From: Paraphaeosphaeria minitans
Lineage: Eukaryota; Ascomycota; Dothideomycetes; Pleosporales; Didymosphaeriaceae
Assembly (NCBI GenBank): GCA_015832175.1
Contig: WJXW01000013.1
Span: 434,001 to 498,000 of the forward strand
Reading direction: 5' to 3'
DNA length: 64,000 nucleotides
The notes under the pieces were generated by a model. It was not told the origin of the DNA. It was given only the letters and a program-made list of their open reading frames with translations, and did not search any database. Below are positions 10,301-49,023 of the stretch, in pieces. Within the stretch, counting starts at the first letter, position 1, and each line of letters starts with the position of its first letter. The translations under genes and the position numbers were made by a program.

Positions 10301-10470
10301 CCACCATTGCAAAGCTTCTGACAAAAGCCCGACCAAGGGTTCTGACAGCAACGTCCTGCATGTCTCAGTCTCTCAACATTATTGTCGTCGCGATCGCGGG
10401 TCATGGGATGAGTCGCCGGCTAGTGAAAAGATGCACACCGTGCTGGATAGGGACACTCTACCCTTCCAGT
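7374..10470. other. Gene-poor region
   Basis: About 3 kb with many short overlapping open frames on both strands and no domain, conserved motif or plausible exon structure. The longest frames (minus 7617-7982 and 8286-8624) have no recognisable content. A small 7-bp tandem repeat lies at 8874-8901. I can support no gene here. Confidence 0.5.
8874..8901. repeat. 7-bp tandem repeat (TCTCCAA)4
   Basis: Three exact TCTCCAA units followed by a fourth with a final G. Confidence 0.9.
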
Positions 10471-10671
10471 CGACGTGCATCTCAATTCGACGTGCATCTC
10501 AAGCCGACGTGCATCTCAAGCCGACGTGCATCTCAATTCGACGTGCATCTCAATTCGACGTGCATCTCAATTCGACGTGCATCTCAAGCCGACGTGCATC
10601 TCAATTCAACGTGCATCCCAATTCAACGTGCATCCCAATTCAACGTGCATCCCAATTCAACGTGCATCTCC
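10471..10671. repeat. 17-bp minisatellite, about 12 copies
   Basis: Tandem units of CGACGTGCATCTCAATT and CGACGTGCATCTCAAGC, with a C-to-T variant (CAACGTGCATCCCAATT) dominating the right end. Because 17 is not a multiple of three, all forward frames stay open and produce spurious repetitive open frames. Confidence 0.95.
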
Positions 10672-10967
10672 AGTCCCCCTGAAGCAACTTATTAGCTACA
10701 TGGCAAAGTCTCGATTCAATCCGAAACCCCCTCGGGCGTCCTGGCCTCAGCAAAGTGTGACGTAACGCTACCTACACGTGCAGCGCACACTGCAGATACC
10801 TACCTACTTGGTAGATGGATACCTACTCACCCACGACTCGCACGCAGCCCGCAGACCTGCCGAGGCGTGCTACCGTTACCTACCTACCTAGGCGGCAGAA
10901 GGATGCGTCCCCTCCCTCCACCACACACATCGCGTTGCACGCACGCACGCACGGTATCTACCAAGCC

Positions 10968-13456: not shown

Positions 13457-13503
13457 TGGGTAGGTAGGTAGGTAGGTAGGTAGGTAGGTAGGTAGGTAGG
13501 TAG
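13457..13503. repeat. (GGTA)n microsatellite
   Basis: About 11 GGTA tetramers. Shorter runs of the same motif continue to 13531, and its complement (CCTA) recurs at about 13677-13697. Confidence 0.9.
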
Positions 13504-15019
13504 TCTAGGTAGGTAGTCTAGGTAGGTATCTCGCTCCTCCGTCGCCGTCATAGCGGGCTGGAGCGCGTGCTGGCGGCAGGCAGGCAGGCTGGCTGGCTGG
13601 TAGGAAAGTCGTGAATGTTCCAATGCGCAGTCATTCTCTCGTCGCTCATGGCTCGTAGCTCTGCGACATGTTTTGACTACCTACCTACCTACCTACCCAC
13701 CCGCCTACCTAGGCAGACCACGACCTCACAAACAGCGACAGCGACGCCACCCAAGGCAAACCACGCCCTCCACGCAACGCTGCAGTTCCACTCAACTGCT
13801 AGACTGCCTCCTCGTCCGATGCCCACACGATACCTACCAGTGGGCCAGATGCACGCCCGCCCGCCCGCCGGAAGTCCCCGGCCACGTACGCGCCTACCTA
13901 CCCATCGCCAGCCATCATCGCGACTGCGTCTGGGGGCCAAAAAAAGCCGACCCGTCGCGCAGACTGGCGCGGTTGAGCGCTATCTAGCCTCGGGCGATCG
14001 GCCACGCACGATGGGTTGGTAGGTAGATACTAGACTATCTACCTATCTACTGCTCGTGTAGGTAGGTATGATAAGTATCTTGCGCAGCGAAGCTTCGTGC
14101 GGCGTGTGGCTGGTTGGCGTTCGTGGTGCGAGACGTAGGATGCGGGAGAGGGCGACGAGGTGGTGGGTAGACGTGGTAGTGATACCTATGTACATACCAT
14201 CTGTTCATCTATCTATATGTCCTGGCAATTACCTAGGTACAATGCCATCGAAGCGAAAGGCATTCAAGCGTTCCTATCTCCTCTCATCTCGTCTCGTCCT
14301 GTCTCCGCCACGCCACGCTGCGGGATCCCCGCCCTCCCTCGCAGAGACACGACAAAAAACGCCTGAAGATGCAAACAAAACGCAAACACCCGACCCGAAA
14401 GATGAAGCGTAAATCGTGAGTGAACCCCCCGCAGCAGTCCTTTGAGGGTATAACAGACGTGGACCGATGCTGAAAGAGGGGAAAAAAAAAAGACCACCGT
14501 TTTTTTGGGCTTCCCAAGGAGACGTTCCGTGAACACCGTACCTATATACATGTGGAACGTTCTCGACTGCCTGTACATGGAGAGTACAACGTAGGTAGAA
14601 GGAAAAAGACTAGGCGGGTGGATGGACATCGTGTGCGAGCCCGCCAGTCTGGATATCGTACACGCGACGCGTGGACGAGCAGGGTGTTGCGCGAACAGGA
14701 GCCCGGCATATGCGCAGTGGTGGGTGGGTGGGTGGTGGGCGATGTGCCATGCACCTCACCACAATGAGCGCGGAGGAAAATGGTTGCTTGGTCAAAAGAC
14801 CAGCGAACAACCACGGCGATCGGGGGCGTCCCCGAGTAGGTCGACGCTAGAGAGGCATGCTATGCCGAAAGCGAAATGGTAGAGCGGCTTAGACACCTGT
14901 TACGGTCAGCAATCGGGTTTCTTGTGAACAGACGGCCAGAGGAAATCATCCCCACGTGTGCGCAGCAGAACGACTTACCAAAATGTTTTTTTTTGCGTGC
15001 CCCCAATTCCGCGTCCACC

Positions 15020-16132: not shown

Positions 16133-19100
16133 AGCGACGATGTGTGTTCGGTAGTGGTTCAGGCGAGCGAGGTGGTATGGGAGAGGGAAGAGGATGGTCA
16201 CCGAAGTTGTACTGGGTGAAGATGTGCAGAGGGGGGAGCTCGAGGGATATAAAATAGTAGCGGGAGTGTTTTGGCAGACGGCTCGAGCGTGGGAGGTGTG
16301 TGCGCTCGTGGTGGCTGAACCGAGAACTGGAGACTGACGTGGGATACGCTGCTCAATCATAGAGATTGTTGGTCGAGCTCGGGAACCTCGCATGAGGGGC
16401 CATCAACGGCTGCCCAGTGCAGGATTCAGGTCGGGCATAAGCCAATGAGGGTCCGGCCAAGGTTACTTTTCCACAGCGTGGCCGACCTCCTTCCAAGATA
16501 GTTCGGCGACGAGCTATGGGTCTGTCAATCCTGCCAGCAAGCGGTCCCAAGCGCCTCGTGCTGGGGTCCCTGTCTCGAGGGTTGCTGGGGTCCGCAGTGC
16601 AGGAAGTAGGTGCAGTTGAGCCCAGCAGTGCCTTGCCTGTTTCAGTCCAAGGTCGAGATGCAGGGGCATAGGCATCCTGCAGGCTGACGGCCGGCATTGC
16701 ACGGTCCTCGGCGGTGATCTGACCATCGCAATGGCGATGAAGACGAATCCAAACCGAGCTGTGGCTTGAGCCATGCGGACGTCGGTGTGGAGGATAGCTT
16801 GTAGCAGCCAAGCGCGCGTGGCTGGCGACAGCGGGCGGAGGATGGGTCCACGCCAGGAACTGCTGAGAGACGCGGTGAATAGAGGGCGCAGAGCCTCACG
16901 GCTAGCCACAGCACGGTAGGTAGGCAGGTAGGTAGGTAGTCCACCTAGGTACTGTGGGAAGGCTTCGTAAAGAGTGACAGCCAGGTCGACGGGCTGCTGC
17001 TAGCGGCGGGCGACGGCGCATCGTGGGGAGGGACTGGCTGTCGGTCACGCTCTGGGCTCGCCACCACGGCCGCCTGGTCTCTCGAGCGCGTCGAAACGCC
17101 CACAGACGTACAGCGCGCAAGAGCTGCAGGTGTAATTTGCTAGGAGACGGTGCTTTGGCGGGGATGATGCATGGGGTGGTGTCGCTGGCAGCTGTTTTAG
17201 GCCGTCCTTCTGGGGTCGAGGTGTGGCCGCAGCCTCGTCCAGCACAGTGCACACTGCACGGTGGACTATGCGCGCGAGAAGGCCTGTACTGTGTATGCGA
17301 AGGCCGTACGGACATTCACCCATGACCGGCGCTGGACTGCTGAGCTAATGGCGTTCGGTATACCAAAGCGACTTGAGGCTCTGCTGCGGACTTTGCCATG
17401 GGCTGATTAGCTTCGGGAGAGTGCGCAAAGCTACCAAAACATAACCTTCGGGCCAGAACGGGCAATATCATAGGCGAACAAACGCGCTGCCCGCCTAACC
17501 ACTGCCCCCCCAGAATCCTCACCAAACGTCACAGAAGCCTCTTGCGGTTGGTCTCCTCCTGCTTAAGGCAATAGTAACGTCCTGTGCGTCTGCTTTGGTC
17601 CTGAAACACACCCGACGGTGAGCGGACAGACCTCTTGCTTCAGTACCCAAAAAGGTATTGCCGAATGCTTCTAGAGACCCGTGTCTACTACGCTGGACAG
17701 CCTCTTCACAGTACAGGCTCTTGAACAGTGTCGTCCGTACTCCGTCCACACTAAGAAAGCACTGATCTTGCCAAGGGTACGCCCGTGTAGTGATTGTAGA
17801 TGCACTGACGTTGTCGATAACGTCACCCTTCTTGGTCGCTCGGGAGCAGCGCAATGCAGTCACACTTGACAAAAAGGAGAGAAACAACCCAATTCCAGAC
17901 ACTTTCAGTACCACCGAGTTAACCGGCCCATGTTTGAGGCCGACCTGAATCGCCGTTGCTCTCGTTCGGGTGCACCCTCGATGAATATGGCTGGGAGGGA
18001 TGGTACGGTCCAGCCTCGAGCAAACTCCCCTCTCTAATCACAACGTCTTCATTCTTCAGTTGGCCTTGCATTGTCGGCCCGTGGTCGAAGCGTTGCGGAA
18101 ACAAACATGCAAGTGTCTTACGGTCCTATCATCGCAACGAGCATTGCACATGGCATGCTTTGCAGTGCCCTCGGCTAATCCGATGCTGGCAACGTGCGAA
18201 CGATTGACTGTACAACCGTGCGAACGGACTTGAATCTGCATGGCCCACGAGCCCGTTTGGGATACAACTATTTAGGCCTGCAGTCGTAAAAGGCTGGTGT
18301 TTACATCGGGGGCTACTGGATTCTTTTCGCCTCTCTTTACGAGCTTCCGAGATAGCTATCGCGCCATAGGAGACCGAAAGCTGGGGATGCGGCTCGTGCT
18401 TGACTTTCCAGATGCCATCAAGGAGCTTCTAGTGCCGTGCTTCGGCGAAGGCGAGATCGAAAGGGCCCACATCTAGTTGAGTAGTGCACTCCCATATTGA
18501 ATATAGCATCGGGATGCGACGACTAGGGCTTGGAACGGTAGCCACATGGACCAGGTTGTAGCGTACCTGCATGGCCAAGCTTTTTTTTTCGAAGCAGTAG
18601 GATGCGTTTCAGGTTGCATGCCTACACTGCACTGTGGTTTAGAGTTGTCCGAAGTCGAGGTATGGTGGGGCTGAGTCGACGCCATGGTGGCCACGGCTTG
18701 CTGCAGGTACCGGTATGGGTTTACTGCTAGTATCTGCATAGCGCTCAGCTTCATCTCCGTCGTCTATCTCGAGTTAGCATTCTAAACTGATGACAGGGGC
18801 AGACGCGACAGAGCTCAGCGTAGCTGTGCGTCATGTGGTTATTCATAGCCCAGATGCTAGCTTCGGTAATGAGGTCTGCGATTAGGTACGATACTGGGTG
18901 TCGATCTGCGACGGTTACGCTAAGTAGCATACTCCCAATCAGTCCCGTGATCAGATCGCTGGCATCGTTGTTCAACGTCCGGCGAATTTTGCTGTGAACA
19001 TCGTGAAGAAGGGAAGCTAGTTTCCGGAACAATCCCGCAGCCGCTGCCGTACCTAGCGCCCTACCTACCAGCGAATTTGCTCTTGTTGGCCTGTCGCGTG

Positions 19101-32877: not shown

Positions 32878-35045
32878 GATGGATGTGATGGGTAAACTAG
32901 GGAGGTCGGGCGCACAGGTGACTGGATGATGGAGGGCGGGCGCTTTTATAAGGCCGAGTTCGGGCCCGTTGTATGAGCAAGTGGACGCGATCAAGAGCAG
33001 GCAAGTGCCGATGGCCCAGCGACGCAATTGCACTGCACGGTGCCGTCCCACGAGTTCTTTTTCCAAGTTGCCAACCCACCTTGTGCTTCTGCGCGTCGCG
33101 CAATGACGCAAGCGCATACCACTCGGGAAGTTCTGTACGAAGAGAATATTGCTATGTGTCAACGCCAGCCCATCACAGCTAGCCAATGCCAAAAGAATGG
33201 ATGGATTGTCATTCTAGCTCCCGCGACCATCTTGGGGACCCCTTTTTCCAACACAGCGGACGCCGGAACTGCATGTCCCTACGGTGCCGGCCATTCCACA
33301 GTGATCTCCGTCTCGAGAGGGACGCGCTGTGGCTCGTGAACAATGGAGAAGCTGCGCGAATCAAGAACGATGTGATCCAAGGGGACAAAGGGTCACGAAG
33401 TTTGTACAAGAGATTTCAACGGGCCGATGCCGCGATTCTCGTGATTCTATTTCGGGGTCCGATCCCTCGCTTCCGGGGGCCCGGTTAGGTTTAGCGTGGG
33501 CGGATGCAGGGCAAGACCGTTTGTGCGCCACCATCTAGAACAACACAGCAACTTCTACAACACGCATTATTATTGTACTTGATCATGCAAGAGATGGTTT
33601 ACCACGATCAGCTAGCTCTCGTACCCCTGACCACCGACGCCTCGAGTGAATCGGATCCACAGCAGCCGCCCAAGAAAAGCAACCTCTGCCGGAACCGAAC
33701 ACGCAGGGCACCGAGCACCCCTCAATCCTATCATTCTCAACTTGAACCATTCGTGGCGGGCGAACAGTTGTAATCAAAAACGATTCTCCTCAGAGCTGCA
33801 CGATTCCTCAAGCTCAGCCAGGGCTGGTCCGGCATCATGCCCAACTTGAACCACTCGTGGCGGACGAACAGTTGTGATTGAAACCCATTCTCCCCAAGGC
33901 TGGCATTCAACTTAGACACGCAAGATAATTCCATCTTAGCCTTGCAGGCTGGACCCAAACTTTGGACCTGCTGGGCTTGAGGATTCTCGCACAGCTGCAT
34001 GTACAGAACTGCGTACAAGCTTATGCTGCTGGTCCGCGAGTGGGGGCACAGGTGAGCATCAGCTTGGACGAGAGCTTTTCTCAGATGTTTCTTTGTCCAG
34101 ATAATTGATTGCTCGACCTCTTTCCCCAGCCATGAATCTGGGTTCTTGGCTTCTTTGGCCACACGAGACTTTTCCACTGCGTCATTGAAGCCCAGGAGCT
34201 TGACGAACCCTCACCGACTCGTTGATCTCTGCGTTTAGGACCATCTCTGGAGGGAGAAGCAGAAATGGGCTTGACTCTGAGTCGTAAGCTTCGATGGTCA
34301 AGGAGGTGATTTGTTGAAAATCCCACATGCGCATGATATAAGTGTCAGACTAAGTGGCACGCACATGGCGCACAGGCTGTTGACGATAGCGCTGGTAGGT
34401 ATCCAGTGGTAGTTGAGATGTCTGCCACGACATGCTCTAGTTTTCTCGATTGGAGAGCGTCGTGTACACGTTGGCAAGCGTATCGATGGATAATGCCCCC
34501 TCCCGGCGATTTTTTGCTGTGTTCTTATAAGCTTGCAATGTATGCGTTGGCCTTTTTATTTAGTGCTGAAGGGATCTCGTACGCCTGGGCATATTCCAAA
34601 CCTCTGCGACCCGCCATGTTCAACCTTGGCTGGCTGGCGCCAGTAAACGGCGGTGGTTGGGTATCGACTTTTAGTGCCTATGGTACTTCCAACACTACCA
34701 GCGCGGCAACAAACGAGCGTGAATGTCCCGAAAAGAAAAGGTCACGTGACTGTGTGGGGTCCGTGTCCATGCACAAAGATGTGCTCGTACGGTCTTCAAA
34801 GGGGTCCAGTCTAGATTCTAACACGTCATAGCCGGAATGTCGAGCAGCTTCGTTCAATTTCTTTGAAGAGGGAGATGCCTAGGATCCAGCGCATGGAAGG
34901 AACTCGCGAATCACTCAAGAGCAGGAAACATGTGTTGTGAAATAGCGATACGAAGTTATGCTATCGCAACCGCAGATTGTCGCGTAATCCCTTCGTATTC
35001 CAAGGCTGGGTCCAGAATCGCGTCGTTTCTCTACTCGCTAGTAAA
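32878..35045. other. Intergenic region with a diverged direct repeat
   Basis: About 2.2 kb between the PRM10-like gene and the MATE gene. It holds a pair of ~62-bp direct repeats at 33737-33902. An open frame at about 34406-34831 (+) has one hydrophobic stretch but no good initiation context or homology I recognise, and is left unannotated. Confidence 0.45.
33737..33902. repeat. Pair of ~62-bp direct repeats, offset 104 bp
   Basis: Copies at 33737-33798 and 33841-33902 share CAACTTGAACCA and ACAGTTGT and align throughout. Nearly all differences are transitions (C/T or G/A), as repeat-induced point mutation would leave, though so short a duplication is below its usual size range. Confidence 0.8.
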
Positions 35046-46089: not shown

Positions 46090-46988
46090 ATGCCTCTCGC
46101 AAAACACCCCAATCCCTCCAGCTCGGTGACCTCCCACTTCTCCCTCAAAGGCAAAGTCGCGGCCGTCACCGGCGGCGCCCGCGGAATAGGCCTCTCCGCC
46201 TCGCGCGCCATCGCCGAAGCAGACGCCTCCGTCGCAACCCTCTACTCCTCCACCAACGACGCCGACGCCATCGCATCCCAAATCGCGGCAGACACCGGTG
46301 CTAATGTAAAAGCATACAAAGCCTCTGTCGAAACTAAGGAAGAGATCGCCTCAGTATTACGGCAGATCTCTGAGGACTTTGGAGGCTTGCACATTGTCGT
46401 AGCAAACGCGGGTACTGTGCTCTCCGATACAAAGTCGCCATGTCTTAGACATAGAGAAGTTGTACACAAACCAACTTTTGTGACACGACTGACTTTGAAG
46501 CCGCGAGTATAGGTGTCGCGAACCACCATGCGGCAGAAGACTACACCGAGGAGCAATGGCGCAAGGTCATGGCCGTGAACCTCGATGGCGCGTTCTACAC
46601 TGCTCAGGCAGCGGGTAACATCTTCAAGAACCAGGGTCACGGAAACTTGATCTTCACCGCTTCAGTCTCCGCCATCCTCGTTAATGTCCCGCAAAAGCAG
46701 GCAGCGTATAACGCGTCCAAAGCAGGGGTGGTGCAATTAGCTCGCTGTCTTTCCGTTGAGTGGGTCGAGTTTGCGCGCGTCAACTGCGTGAGCCCCGGGT
46801 TTATCGAAACGGATATGCTAGATGTGCATCCCGAGGCCCACAGGAAGAAGTGGTTCGACATTATTCCTGCGAAGAGGATGTGCGAGCCGGATGAGTTGAA
46901 GGGGGCGTATGTGTTTTTGGCGAGCTAGGCAAGCTCGTATATGACGGGTGCGAATTTGGTCATTGATGGAGGATATACCTTGCCGTGA
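46090..46988 (+). pseudogene. Sorbose reductase/mannitol dehydrogenase-type SDR with premature TAG
   Basis: Exons 46090-46411 and 46513-46988 are joined in phase 1 over a 101-nt intron. The protein is a classical short-chain dehydrogenase of the Sou1/NADP-mannitol dehydrogenase type: VTGGARGIGL cofactor loop, HIVVANAG across the splice, catalytic Ser in TASVSA, and the YNASKAG Tyr-Lys pair, then VSPGFIETDML. These enzymes interconvert ketoses and polyols in the cytosol. In the last stretch the frame reads AYVFLAS, then TAG (46926-46928), then ASSYMTGANLVIDGGYTLP and a normal TGA at 46986-46988. The tail is plainly the family's conserved C-terminus, so one codon has become a stop and removes the last ~20 residues, which help shape the substrate pocket. 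A base-call error is possible. The intron is one of the two introner-like copies. Confidence 0.82.
46412..46512 (+). mobile_element. Introner-like intron, copy A
   Basis: A 101-nt GT-AG intron splitting the Gly codon of ANAG (phase 1). It shares ordered blocks with the intron at 48128-48231: TACAAAGTCGC, ATGTCTTAG, TTGTAC and CGAGTATAG at the acceptor. It includes the palindrome ATGTCTTAGACAT. Introns of unrelated position normally share nothing beyond splice signals, so a common mobile origin is likely. Introner-like elements of this size are known from Dothideomycetes. Confidence 0.65.
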
Positions 46989-47815
46989 GCGGTTGAATGC
47001 GCGTTTCTGCGGGTGGTTGGTCGATGATAACAGGATGATTCAACTGTACTTGATCAAATGTCTCTTCCTTCAGAGTACCATACTCGACCTTTCCGAGGCT
47101 GTTCATGCGAATTTGTGACCGAGACTTGGTTCAAAGATCATAGCAAGGTCTTCCGATATATCCCGCGTACTGTGGCCTAGCGAAGTAGCCTGAGATCGTG
47201 CAGACGACTCTGGGCTGCAATTCCTGCAGCAAGCCAGCTCGGGTAGATGAAAGGGCTTAGTTCAAACTCAGACATGGACGCTACATCCGGCAACAGATTT
47301 CCAAGTCCAGGGTCGGATGATCCGTCATCTGAAATCGTCTAGGTCTCTGTTGATCGATCAGACTGGGAAACAGTGGGTCTGCCTGCACGAAAACATGAGA
47401 CAGACCACCCAGTGGCCCCCATGATCGGTAGTTTCGGAGGTCACCCTAGAGCCTCACGTACCGCCCGTATAGTCGTACGAGCCTCCGAAAGCTTGGTCAT
47501 TGATCACAAAACCTAATTGCAAGAGGCCTTGCTACGTGTGTGGGGTCCGCGAGAAGGCAGTGTGCAGACAGTACACTGCAGGCAGTGCTCTTTGAACCCG
47601 AGACGAGGGCGAACCCCATACTTACCATCCGCGCGTAAGAAAATGTTGCTGTCAAGTGTGGATGAAGCCAGCATGGTAGATCCACTGTAAACGGAAACTA
47701 AATACCCACGCTCTTATATAGACTCCCAGGCCACATTTTGTTTCTAATGAAATCTGCAACGTCGTTTCAATTGTTCCAGTTCTATACCTAGAATCTTTAT
47801 CAGTTACCTTGCATA
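46989..47815. other. Intergenic region between two SDR genes
   Basis: About 830 bp. It should hold the first gene's terminator and the second gene's promoter. No gene or repeat was recognised. Confidence 0.5.
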
Positions 47816-48568
47816 ATGACTGCCAACGGGACCATCAACGGCAATGGCGCCACCAGGAAGTCCATACGCGCCCCCAATCCCCCGCTCAAAGACAGTGTCT
47901 TCGATATGTTCCGTCTCGATGGCAAGGCAGCCATAATAACAGGTGGCTCGGGCGGGATCGGGTACGAGGTCGCGCGCGTGCTGGCAGAAGCTGGAGCAAA
48001 CATTGCGATATGGTACGCGCACTCCAAGAAGACGCACGCCCTCGCCGAGACCATCGCCTCGGATTTCAACGTCAAGGTCAAGGCGTACCAGGTGGCTGTG
48101 GAGGACTATGCTGCGGTGGAGAAGGCAGTACGATACCCCCTGGTACAAAGTCGCTATGTCTTAGCATAGACAAATTGTACCTGAACCCACGTTTGCATGT
48201 GACTAAGCTGACTCTGTACCCACGAGTATAGGTAGCCACAGTCGAGGAGGAATTCGGCAGGCTCGACATCATGGTCGCAAACGCTGGTATCTCAACCAAG
48301 GCAGGGGGTCTGGATGACCTCGTCGAGGACTGGAACACAGTGCGAGTCATCGATTTTGACGGCGCTTACTACTGTGTCCGAGCAGTTGGATTGGTGTTCA
48401 GGAAACAGGGCTGTAAGTTTCGCTTTCCCAATCCAAAGGATGGGAGTTTTATGCTGACGACAGAATCTTGTAGCCGGAAACTGCATCTTCACAGCCTCAA
48501 TGTCCGGCCACGCAGCCAACGTCCCGCAAGAGCAATCGTGTTCATTTGGAGCGGCACCGGAATGTTGA
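47816..48568 (+). pseudogene. Truncated short-chain dehydrogenase (3' half replaced)
   Basis: Exons 47816-48127, 48232-48412 and 48474 onward encode a second SDR close to the sorbose-reductase group: AAIITGGSGGIGYEVARVLA, FGRLDIMVANAGIS, and CIFTASMSGHAANVPQEQS. Intron 1 (104 nt) is the second introner-like copy; intron 2 (61 nt) is ordinary. Immediately after PQEQSC, where the catalytic Tyr-x3-Lys should follow, the sequence turns into a sugar-transporter gene and the SDR frame ends at TGA 48566-48568. The enzyme therefore lacks its active site and half of its fold. Everything before the junction is intact, which points to a deletion fusing two same-strand genes. Confidence 0.85.
48128..48231 (+). 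mobile_element. Introner-like intron, copy B
   Basis: A 104-nt phase-0 intron after VEKA, 19 codons before the ANAG motif. It is similar along its length to the intron at 46412-46512, ending in the same CGAGTATAG. A hairpin CTATG-TCTTAG-CATAG is present. The trinucleotide GTA begins the intron and also begins the next exon, as a small target-site duplication would. Confidence 0.65.
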
Positions 48569-49023
48569 TCTCGTACATTGTCTGGACAGCATGTTCGGCA
48601 GTCAACAATGAGCAAAATAACAAGGCAGCTGGCTACGTCGTGGTGGTGTGTCTTTTCGCCTTTTCACTTCCACTACGACATCGCATATACTCCGCTCCTC
48701 ATGTCGTATCTCACTGAGATCTTCCCGTACACCTTACGGTCCAAAGGTATTACGTGCGAGTTGTTGTCATCTACTGCTCACTCGTCATCGCTGCTTTCGT
48801 CAACCCGATCGGTATGGAAAACCTTGGCTGGAAGTACTACATTTGTTTCTGCTGTTTCTTGGCAGTATTCCTCGCGGTCACATATATGTTCTTCCCCGAG
48901 ACCAAAGGACGAAACTTGGAAGAGATTGCTGAGATTTTTGACGGACCCGGCGCTCAAGTTGATACGCATGCCGTCGAGAAGGAACATGTCTATGCAGACA
49001 AGGAGCACAAGGAGGTGGTATAA
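48535..49023 (+). pseudogene. C-terminal remnant of an MFS sugar transporter
   Basis: The sequence encodes the last third of a sugar:proton symporter in several frames: VFIWSGTGMLISYIVWTACS and YVVVVCLFAF, then HYDIAYTPLLMSYLTEIFPY and TLRSKG, then NPIGMENLGWKYYICF, and PETKGRNLEEIAEIFDG, ending at TAA 49023. PETKGRNLEE is the signature at the end of the twelfth span. At least two frameshifts (near 48665 and 48755) interrupt it, and all earlier spans are missing. It is fused directly to the truncated SDR, so the original transporter start lay in the deleted DNA. Confidence 0.85.

Follow-up and report, generated by a model that had tools for sequence, protein, structure and literature searches.

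Two similar introns in neighboring SDR genes

The window analyzed here, a 64,000 nt stretch of contig WJXW01000013.1 of the fungus Paraphaeosphaeria minitans (introns A and B and their genes are numbered within it), contains two adjacent, paralogous SDR genes, A and B, each interrupted by an intron of about 100 nt; these two introns, and the genome-wide family of introner-like elements to which they appear to belong, are our subject (Table 1). The original prediction, that introns A and B are alike along their whole length, was right in its coordinates and in its detail: both contain TACAAAGTCGC, ATGTCTTAG, TTGTAC, and CGAGTATAG, and they are about 77% identical end to end. In a blastn search confined to the window, A matched B at 76.4% over 89 nt (E = 8e-13), and the remaining matches of intron A there had E values of at least 0.68, leaving A-B as the sole significant pair; chance resemblance is ruled out by this E value together with the 30 copies described below. 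The exons are less alike than the introns, as had been claimed: the two proteins are 39% identical (57/147 aa), and the exon DNA of both genes yields only matches of 60 and 44 nt, compared with an intron DNA match of 91 nt at 77%. Protein alignments also bear out that the introns occupy different sites, A in phase 1 within a Gly codon and B in phase 0, 19 codons earlier, and the spliced proteins pass the junction without a gap when aligned to solved SDRs such as 7dll. Complementarity between the two ends was scored at 11 in intron A (p = 0.002, 1000 shuffles) and likewise at 11 in intron B (p = 0.002). The predicted internal palindromes do lie at the same place in both introns, although their sequences are not identical.

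Table 1. Coordinates of SDR genes A and B, their introns, and intron features within the window
Feature	Position	Strand	Remarks
SDR gene A, coding exon 1	46090..46411	+	
Intron A, introner-like family member	46412..46512	+	Phase 1, in Gly codon of NAG motif of SDR gene A; 84% to family consensus
Intron A, terminal inverted repeat, 5′ arm	46415..46436	+	Begins 3 nt inside intron
Intron A, internal palindrome ATGTCTTAGACAT	46440..46452	+	
Intron A, branch-site-like CTGAC	46489..46493	+	
Intron A, terminal inverted repeat, 3′ arm	46491..46512	+	Last bases are acceptor AG
SDR gene A, coding exon 2	46513..46929	+	Terminates at in-frame TAG
SDR gene B, coding exon 1	47816..48127	+	
Intron B, introner-like family member	48128..48231	+	Phase 0, in SDR gene B; 91% to family consensus
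Intron B, terminal inverted repeat, 5′ arm	48131..48152	+	
Intron B, internal palindrome CTATG-TCTTAG-CATAG	48154..48169	+	
Intron B, branch-site-like CTGAC	48208..48212	+	
Intron B, terminal inverted repeat, 3′ arm	48210..48231	+	Last bases are acceptor AG
SDR gene B, coding exon 2	48232..48412	+	Followed by ordinary intron at ~48413-48473, read by eye

A genome-wide family of related introns

At least 30 copies of the family are present in the genome, 27 of them with both ends and 3 partial, distributed over 13 contigs. DNA searches of the genome gave 7 matches for intron A, 7 for intron B, and 17 for the 101 nt family consensus (GTACGATACTCCCCGGTACAAAGTCGCTATGTCTTAGACATAGACAACTTGTACATGAACCCACTTTTGTGACTCAGCTGACTTTGTACCCGCGAGTATAG); five sequence patterns were found at 14, 19, 18, 14, and 17 places in the genome, compared with 1, 0, 0, 1, and 0 for the reversed patterns used as controls. 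When DNA and pattern searches were merged, 26 copies had both ends, and another three (L030, L045, and L062) were recognizable in their 3′ part only. Two extra patterns, found at 4 and 21 places (0 and 5 in the controls), added no copy, their two new places being judged chance, and matches L039, L044, L086, and L087 were discarded by eye, also as chance. The 27th both-ended copy (L092, C1:4314873-4314962) came to light by a separate route, and the total of 30 is a lower bound. Most family statistics below rest on the 26 aligned both-ended copies, in six of which (the worn copies L010, L025, L026, L041, L043, and L077) the acceptor was placed at a nearby AG, by rule or by eye. One of the worn partial copies, L045, has GCACGATCTTCCCC as its 5′ part; it could be a GC-AG intron, and its frame is ambiguous.

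The copies lie in apparently unrelated genes. A Pfam scan took in 27 copies (L012, L045, and L062 were left out), and in 15 of them a domain above cut-off spans the spliced junction on the strand of the intron: two SDRs, sugar and other transporters, an ABC transporter, M13 peptidase, AA9, the ATP synthase alpha/beta family, HRXXH, a fungal rhodopsin domain, and carbamoyl phosphate synthase. In six more (L005, L009, L017, L041, L042, and L092) the domain lies beside the junction in frame, or is below cut-off; the other six (L002, L004, L010, L018, L024, and L032) have no Pfam match. With the intron removed, at least 20 codons stay open on each side in all but two of 26 copies (L012 and L059), with 7, 10, and 9 copies in phases 0, 1, and 2, respectively; frames were picked by eye for L012 and L054, and that of L026 was set after its acceptor had been reset. 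The genome-wide searches showed no intergenic or antisense copy, with the host genes of 9 of the 30 copies not established, and these nine make the lack of intergenic copies less telling than it might seem. The expectation that many genic copies with a shared consensus would be found at unrelated sites has thus been borne out, and we think it probable that one mobile spliceosomal intron gave rise to both A and B, which represent a new fungal introner-like family of ~100 nt with at least 30 copies.

The copies could instead be old ordinary introns that were secondarily hit by a short repeat. Ordinary introns do occur at or near the same sites in some paralogs, and one transporter paralog (L103/L104), in whose longer intron the 3′ part is similar to the family end (AGCTGACTTTATATCCACGCG), may be a case of a copy within such an intron; its family-end score is marginal, having been reached by 5/200 and 10/200 shuffles, and we left it out of the count. 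The consensus, however, can be aligned from first to last base in 20 of 25 both-ended copies, and there is no space for an older intron around the repeat because copies are only 88-108 nt long. We regard secondary invasion of older introns as highly improbable.

Age and kinship of the copies

Individual copies are 58-91% identical to the consensus, and the family looks worn: near-identical copies (98-99%) are absent among the 26 aligned. The closest pair consists of intron B and L009, a copy on a different contig, in a gene with a weak match to pyridine-nucleotide oxidoreductases. Introns A and B, at 77%, rank only 74th of 325 pairs, so that of the predicted recent gain of two introns from one mobile family, the gain is supported and the word recent is not. 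Two pairs of copies lie less than 5 kb apart, more than random placement would suggest (P = 0.004): L003-L007 on C12, and A-B, the pair noticed first.

That SDR genes A and B are adjacent paralogs would suit an intron shared through gene conversion between neighbors, or inherited by both from a common ancestral gene. We reject both versions, and consider this the least credible of the explanations weighed here: i) the two sites are 19 codons apart and differ in phase; ii) at least 28 additional copies are found elsewhere; and iii) the low rank of A-B, and a nearest relative of B on another contig, are not what exchange between neighbors predicts. The earlier claim that A and B are not one inherited intron therefore stands. 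Nor, within the P. minitans genome itself, were these introns seen at homologous sites in other SDR paralogs, the outcome that had been named as counting against independent gain: 37 of 43 other SDR matches read in one frame through both the A and B sites (4 of the 37 have stop codons, where a short intron could be hidden), and the ordinary ~50 nt intron two codons upstream of the intron A site in L088 and L089 is unrelated in sequence to the family.

Inverted repeat, folding, and splice signals

The consensus carries an imperfect inverted repeat of ~22 nt in which positions 4-25 pair with positions 80-101 (19/22 pairs). Its score of 17 was reached by none of 2000 shuffles (maximum 13), and the consensus as a whole is self-complementary, scoring 26 against its own reverse complement compared with a maximum of 17 in 1000 shuffles. 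The inverted-repeat signal in single copies weakens with distance from the consensus, and the predicted fold is clearly stable (z ≤ -2.3) in 8 of 26 copies (mean z, -1.13). For the first 11 copies, RNAalifold predicted a weak structure (-2.92 kcal/mol) without the terminal repeat; the repeat was detected by comparison of the two intron ends.

Against a mean divergence of 21% outside the stem, all 26 aligned copies retain the initial GT, the C, T, and A of a CTnA motif that we take, as in other fungal introns, to be the branch site, and the final AG (partly by construction, since six worn copies were given a nearby AG). Within the stem, 35 of 115 single changes retain a G-U pair, compared with 33.3 expected from the rest of the element, and where both sides have been altered, 5 cells still pair and 8 do not; on these counts we reject upkeep of the stem at the RNA level. 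After insertion, then, the stem is without visible upkeep while GT, the branch motif residues, and AG are kept, and this combination of stem decay and retained splice signals suggests that the symmetry serves to copy the element and not to splice it.

Insertion site

In 18 of 26 copies a G follows the intron directly, and in 25 of 26 the second base is a pyrimidine. The dinucleotide GY (G followed by a pyrimidine) directly follows the insertion in 18/26 copies, compared with 13% of dinucleotides in the flanking exons (binomial p = 8e-11) and with 4 of 26 ordinary intron candidates (Fisher p = 2e-4); this last control is impure, 44 candidates having been obtained compared with 25-36 in shuffled sequence, which means that many are false; of the 44, 26 pass an open-frame filter. 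The original prediction also proposed a GTA target duplication in copy B. The triplets are literally present (GTA...TAG/GTA), yet they reflect no family-wide rule: the first three intron bases are repeated after the intron in 4/26 copies, and in as many when flanks are exchanged between copies. A wider scan, in which boundaries were slid by up to 8 nt for duplications of 2, 3, 4, 5, 6, and 8 nt, found no target-site duplication at the three lengths for which a control was run (3, 4, and 5 nt): the best counts were 15, 3, and 1 of 26, compared with flank-swapped means of 15.9, 3.65, and 1.17. Insertion is, to judge from these boundaries, seamless, before GY, and without target-site duplication.

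We have weighed against this the possibility that the family is a DNA transposon resembling a miniature inverted-repeat transposable element (MITE), that is, a non-autonomous element moved by a transposase, which would derive its 5′ splice site from the duplicated target (GYN) and carry the 3′ AG itself. A terminal inverted repeat of ~22 nt, starting 3 nt in from the 5′ splice site and extending to the acceptor, is what such an element might have; the triplet 3′ of the intron resembles GYA, comparable to the GTA of the intron itself; the two pairs of copies less than 5 kb apart count in its favor, although one of them is the pair that first drew attention; and GY would be expected if no dinucleotide but GT or GC can serve as a 5′ splice site. 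Against a MITE-like origin, i) duplication does not exceed the flank-swapped control at lengths 3-5; ii) GC lies downstream in 11 of 26 copies, yet GT starts all 26 introns; iii) no intergenic or antisense copy was shown by the genome-wide searches, with the reservation already made for nine host genes; and iv) at up to 3 mismatches, 18/18 places matching the 3′ arm and 14/14 places matching the 5′ end lie in family copies, and none in a longer element. In these searches, which more diverged ends would escape, no autonomous partner with the ends of the family was found. We consider the MITE-like explanation unlikely, though it deserves more weight than the other alternatives.

Probable repeated insertion in transporter paralogs

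Copies L037 and L025 occupy the same nucleotide, within the Trp codon (TG/G) of a GW[QR]W motif, in two transporters with 33% protein identity; the introns themselves share 69% identity, close to the median for all pairs. L092 lies in a third transporter paralog, 3 nt downstream of the L037/L025 site, and its nearest relative is L012 rather than either of these two. Ordinary introns, their positions all read by eye, are found in other transporter paralogs at the L092 position (L097), 6 nt below that of L037 (L094 and L095), and nearby (L093 and L098). The survey covered 19 short stretches at 18 places, drawn from 77 matches and selected for a break in the match close to the motif or a little below it, and yielded one new copy (L092); the pattern was seen after the fact. 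With this in mind, the GW[QR]W motif of transporter paralogs is likely to be an insertion hot spot. Introner-like elements of other fungi have been found one, eight, and three nt from ordinary introns of other species, and were termed parallel gains (Collemare et al. 2015, PMC4457414). One might speculate further, and we do so tentatively and with more doubt than conviction, that introner-like elements are aimed: that they enter exons before GT or GC, possible 5′ splice sites, and so hit the same nucleotides again in paralogs, in which case large gene families would owe many of their "conserved" intron positions to repeated gains of introners that have since become too worn to recognize.

SDR host genes and other repeats

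The SDR A protein is 98% identical to the deposited PMIN06_004602 of P. minitans, which has four additional residues (AASI) at the intron, inside the conserved NAG motif, that are absent from 4 aligned relatives. The deposited model appears to use an AG (46499-46500) 12 nt upstream of the family acceptor; the usual end of the family is TATAG, found in intron A at 46512. The in-frame TAG of SDR gene A (46927-46929) falls ~20 codons short of the end of 4 relatives of 265 aa, and the deposited protein terminates at the same TAG. Past the ordinary intron of SDR gene B, the frame soon ends (by eye) and the remnant of a sugar-transporter-like gene comes next (48474-49023), with a second piece matching Sugar_tr above cut-off and a first piece matching weakly; SDR gene B looks truncated or chimeric.

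Across the window and 29 loci (152 kb in all), no other repeated introns were recognized; 9 repeat matches, mostly local, were obtained there, and the two non-local ones span 48 nt inside the window, and 26 nt between L026 and the window. Repeats within the window include overlapping direct repeats of ~120-130 nt (10470-10673; 92% identical, offsets of 68 and 85 nt), a pair of 69 nt segments (33730-33902; 83% identical, 104 nt apart), and a pair of 48 nt segments (13479-13526 and 16915-16962; 83% identical).

Discussion

Copying linked to RNA fits the data better than a DNA transposon, since it would explain both the genic sense copies and the seamless insertion, the first of these arguments being weakened by the nine host genes already mentioned. 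A copy would be transcribed, then spliced out together with the transcript of its host gene; reverse splicing or the repair of a break would then return the excised intron RNA, as a hairpin or double-stranded, to an exon that is transcribed, where it would be converted to DNA; and the new copy would be tolerated because it is spliced at once, later drifting into an ordinary intron. Both reverse splicing into exons and capture of intron RNA during break repair are discussed in PMC8469720, and the two routes may fit the P. minitans data alike. The inverted repeat would, on such a scheme, serve copying rather than splicing.

Several observations weigh against an introner-like family so understood: i) identity between copies is modest (best pair 91%, median 70%); ii) for 9 of 30 copies no host gene is established, six lacking a Pfam match and three lying outside the scan; iii) the open-frame test is also passed by the opposite strand in 19/26 copies, and so separates poorly; iv) AG precedes the insertion in only 3/26 copies, and the AG/GY preference of other fungal families is therefore here without its AG half; v) the inverted repeat reaches p < 0.05 in only 12 of 26 single copies; vi) in 7 of 26 copies the predicted fold is no more stable than in shuffled versions (z > 0); vii) a DNA transposon, too, would show both an inverted repeat and a preferred target; and viii) splicing and gain alike are predicted from the DNA sequence of one genome. 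By comparison with other fungal introner-like elements, the family has similar introns in unrelated genes, an inverted repeat with folding, and seamless insertion without duplication, and lacks near-identical copies and the upstream AG.

P. minitans (of which we take Coniothyrium minitans to be a synonym) belongs to the Pleosporales, as does Alternaria, and within them to the Didymosphaeriaceae; literature listings describe it as a mycoparasite and biocontrol agent. A full-text literature search found no introner report for Paraphaeosphaeria, although the supplements of PMC9860276 may list the species; PMC11889510, found for Pleosporales, deals with another kind of intron. The closest parallels are the Dothideomycetes introner-like elements of Fulvia fulva, Dothistroma septosporum, Zymoseptoria tritici, and Passalora, which likewise are canonical introns with end-to-end similarity that occur in unrelated genes (PMC4457414). 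They resemble the P. minitans family also in seamless insertion with GY on the 3′ side, in gains at or beside the sites of ordinary introns (PMC4457414, PMC8469720), and in inverted repeats or stable folding (PMC8469720); the latter source quotes van der Burgt 2012 for the AG/GY preference and stable folding of fungal elements, and Torriani 2011 for their inverted repeats. Active fungal families have copies that are 98-99% identical, but worn families are counted as well (PMC4457414), with D. septosporum providing a precedent (PMC4457414). The P. minitans family differs in belonging to the Pleosporales, the earlier Dothideomycetes families treated in PMC8469720 being from the Capnodiales; in having ~30 copies found rather than hundreds (PMC4457414), none of them near-identical; and in its want of an upstream AG preference.

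Pezizomycotina introners such as those of Alternaria alternata (Gozashti et al. 2022, PMC9860276) are likewise from ascomycetes and without target-site duplication. PMC9860276 describes ascomycete families as having neither terminal inverted repeats nor duplications, whereas the P. minitans consensus has a terminal inverted repeat; such a repeat is easily overlooked in worn copies, 14 of our 26 single copies missing p = 0.05. Fungal elements with inverted repeats were known before (PMC8469720), but the repeat found here disagrees with the PMC9860276 survey. The symmetrical sister stwintrons and cropped introns of Hypoxylaceae (PMC8469720, PMC12403724) are also self-complementary and seamless, with terminal inverted repeats and a symmetry that fades with age; as described there, however, they arose from nested [D1,2] stwintrons and lack any flanking preference, whereas the P. 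minitans family consists of single introns with a GY preference. The DNA-transposon introners of Symbiodinium and Aureococcus (PMC9860276) share a terminal inverted repeat and, in the Symbiodinium example, an element-borne acceptor; unlike those elements as PMC9860276 presents them, the P. minitans family has no target-site duplication, co-opted splice site, or longer same-ended element that we could find.

How new introns arise has long been debated, and there are few lineages in which the process can be seen. The family described here adds a mycoparasitic biocontrol fungus to these, and provides an ascomycete introner with a clear terminal inverted repeat and a GY-only target preference. The pile-up of seemingly independent gains at the GW[QR]W motif would, moreover, make the problem of parallel intron gain testable within a single genome.

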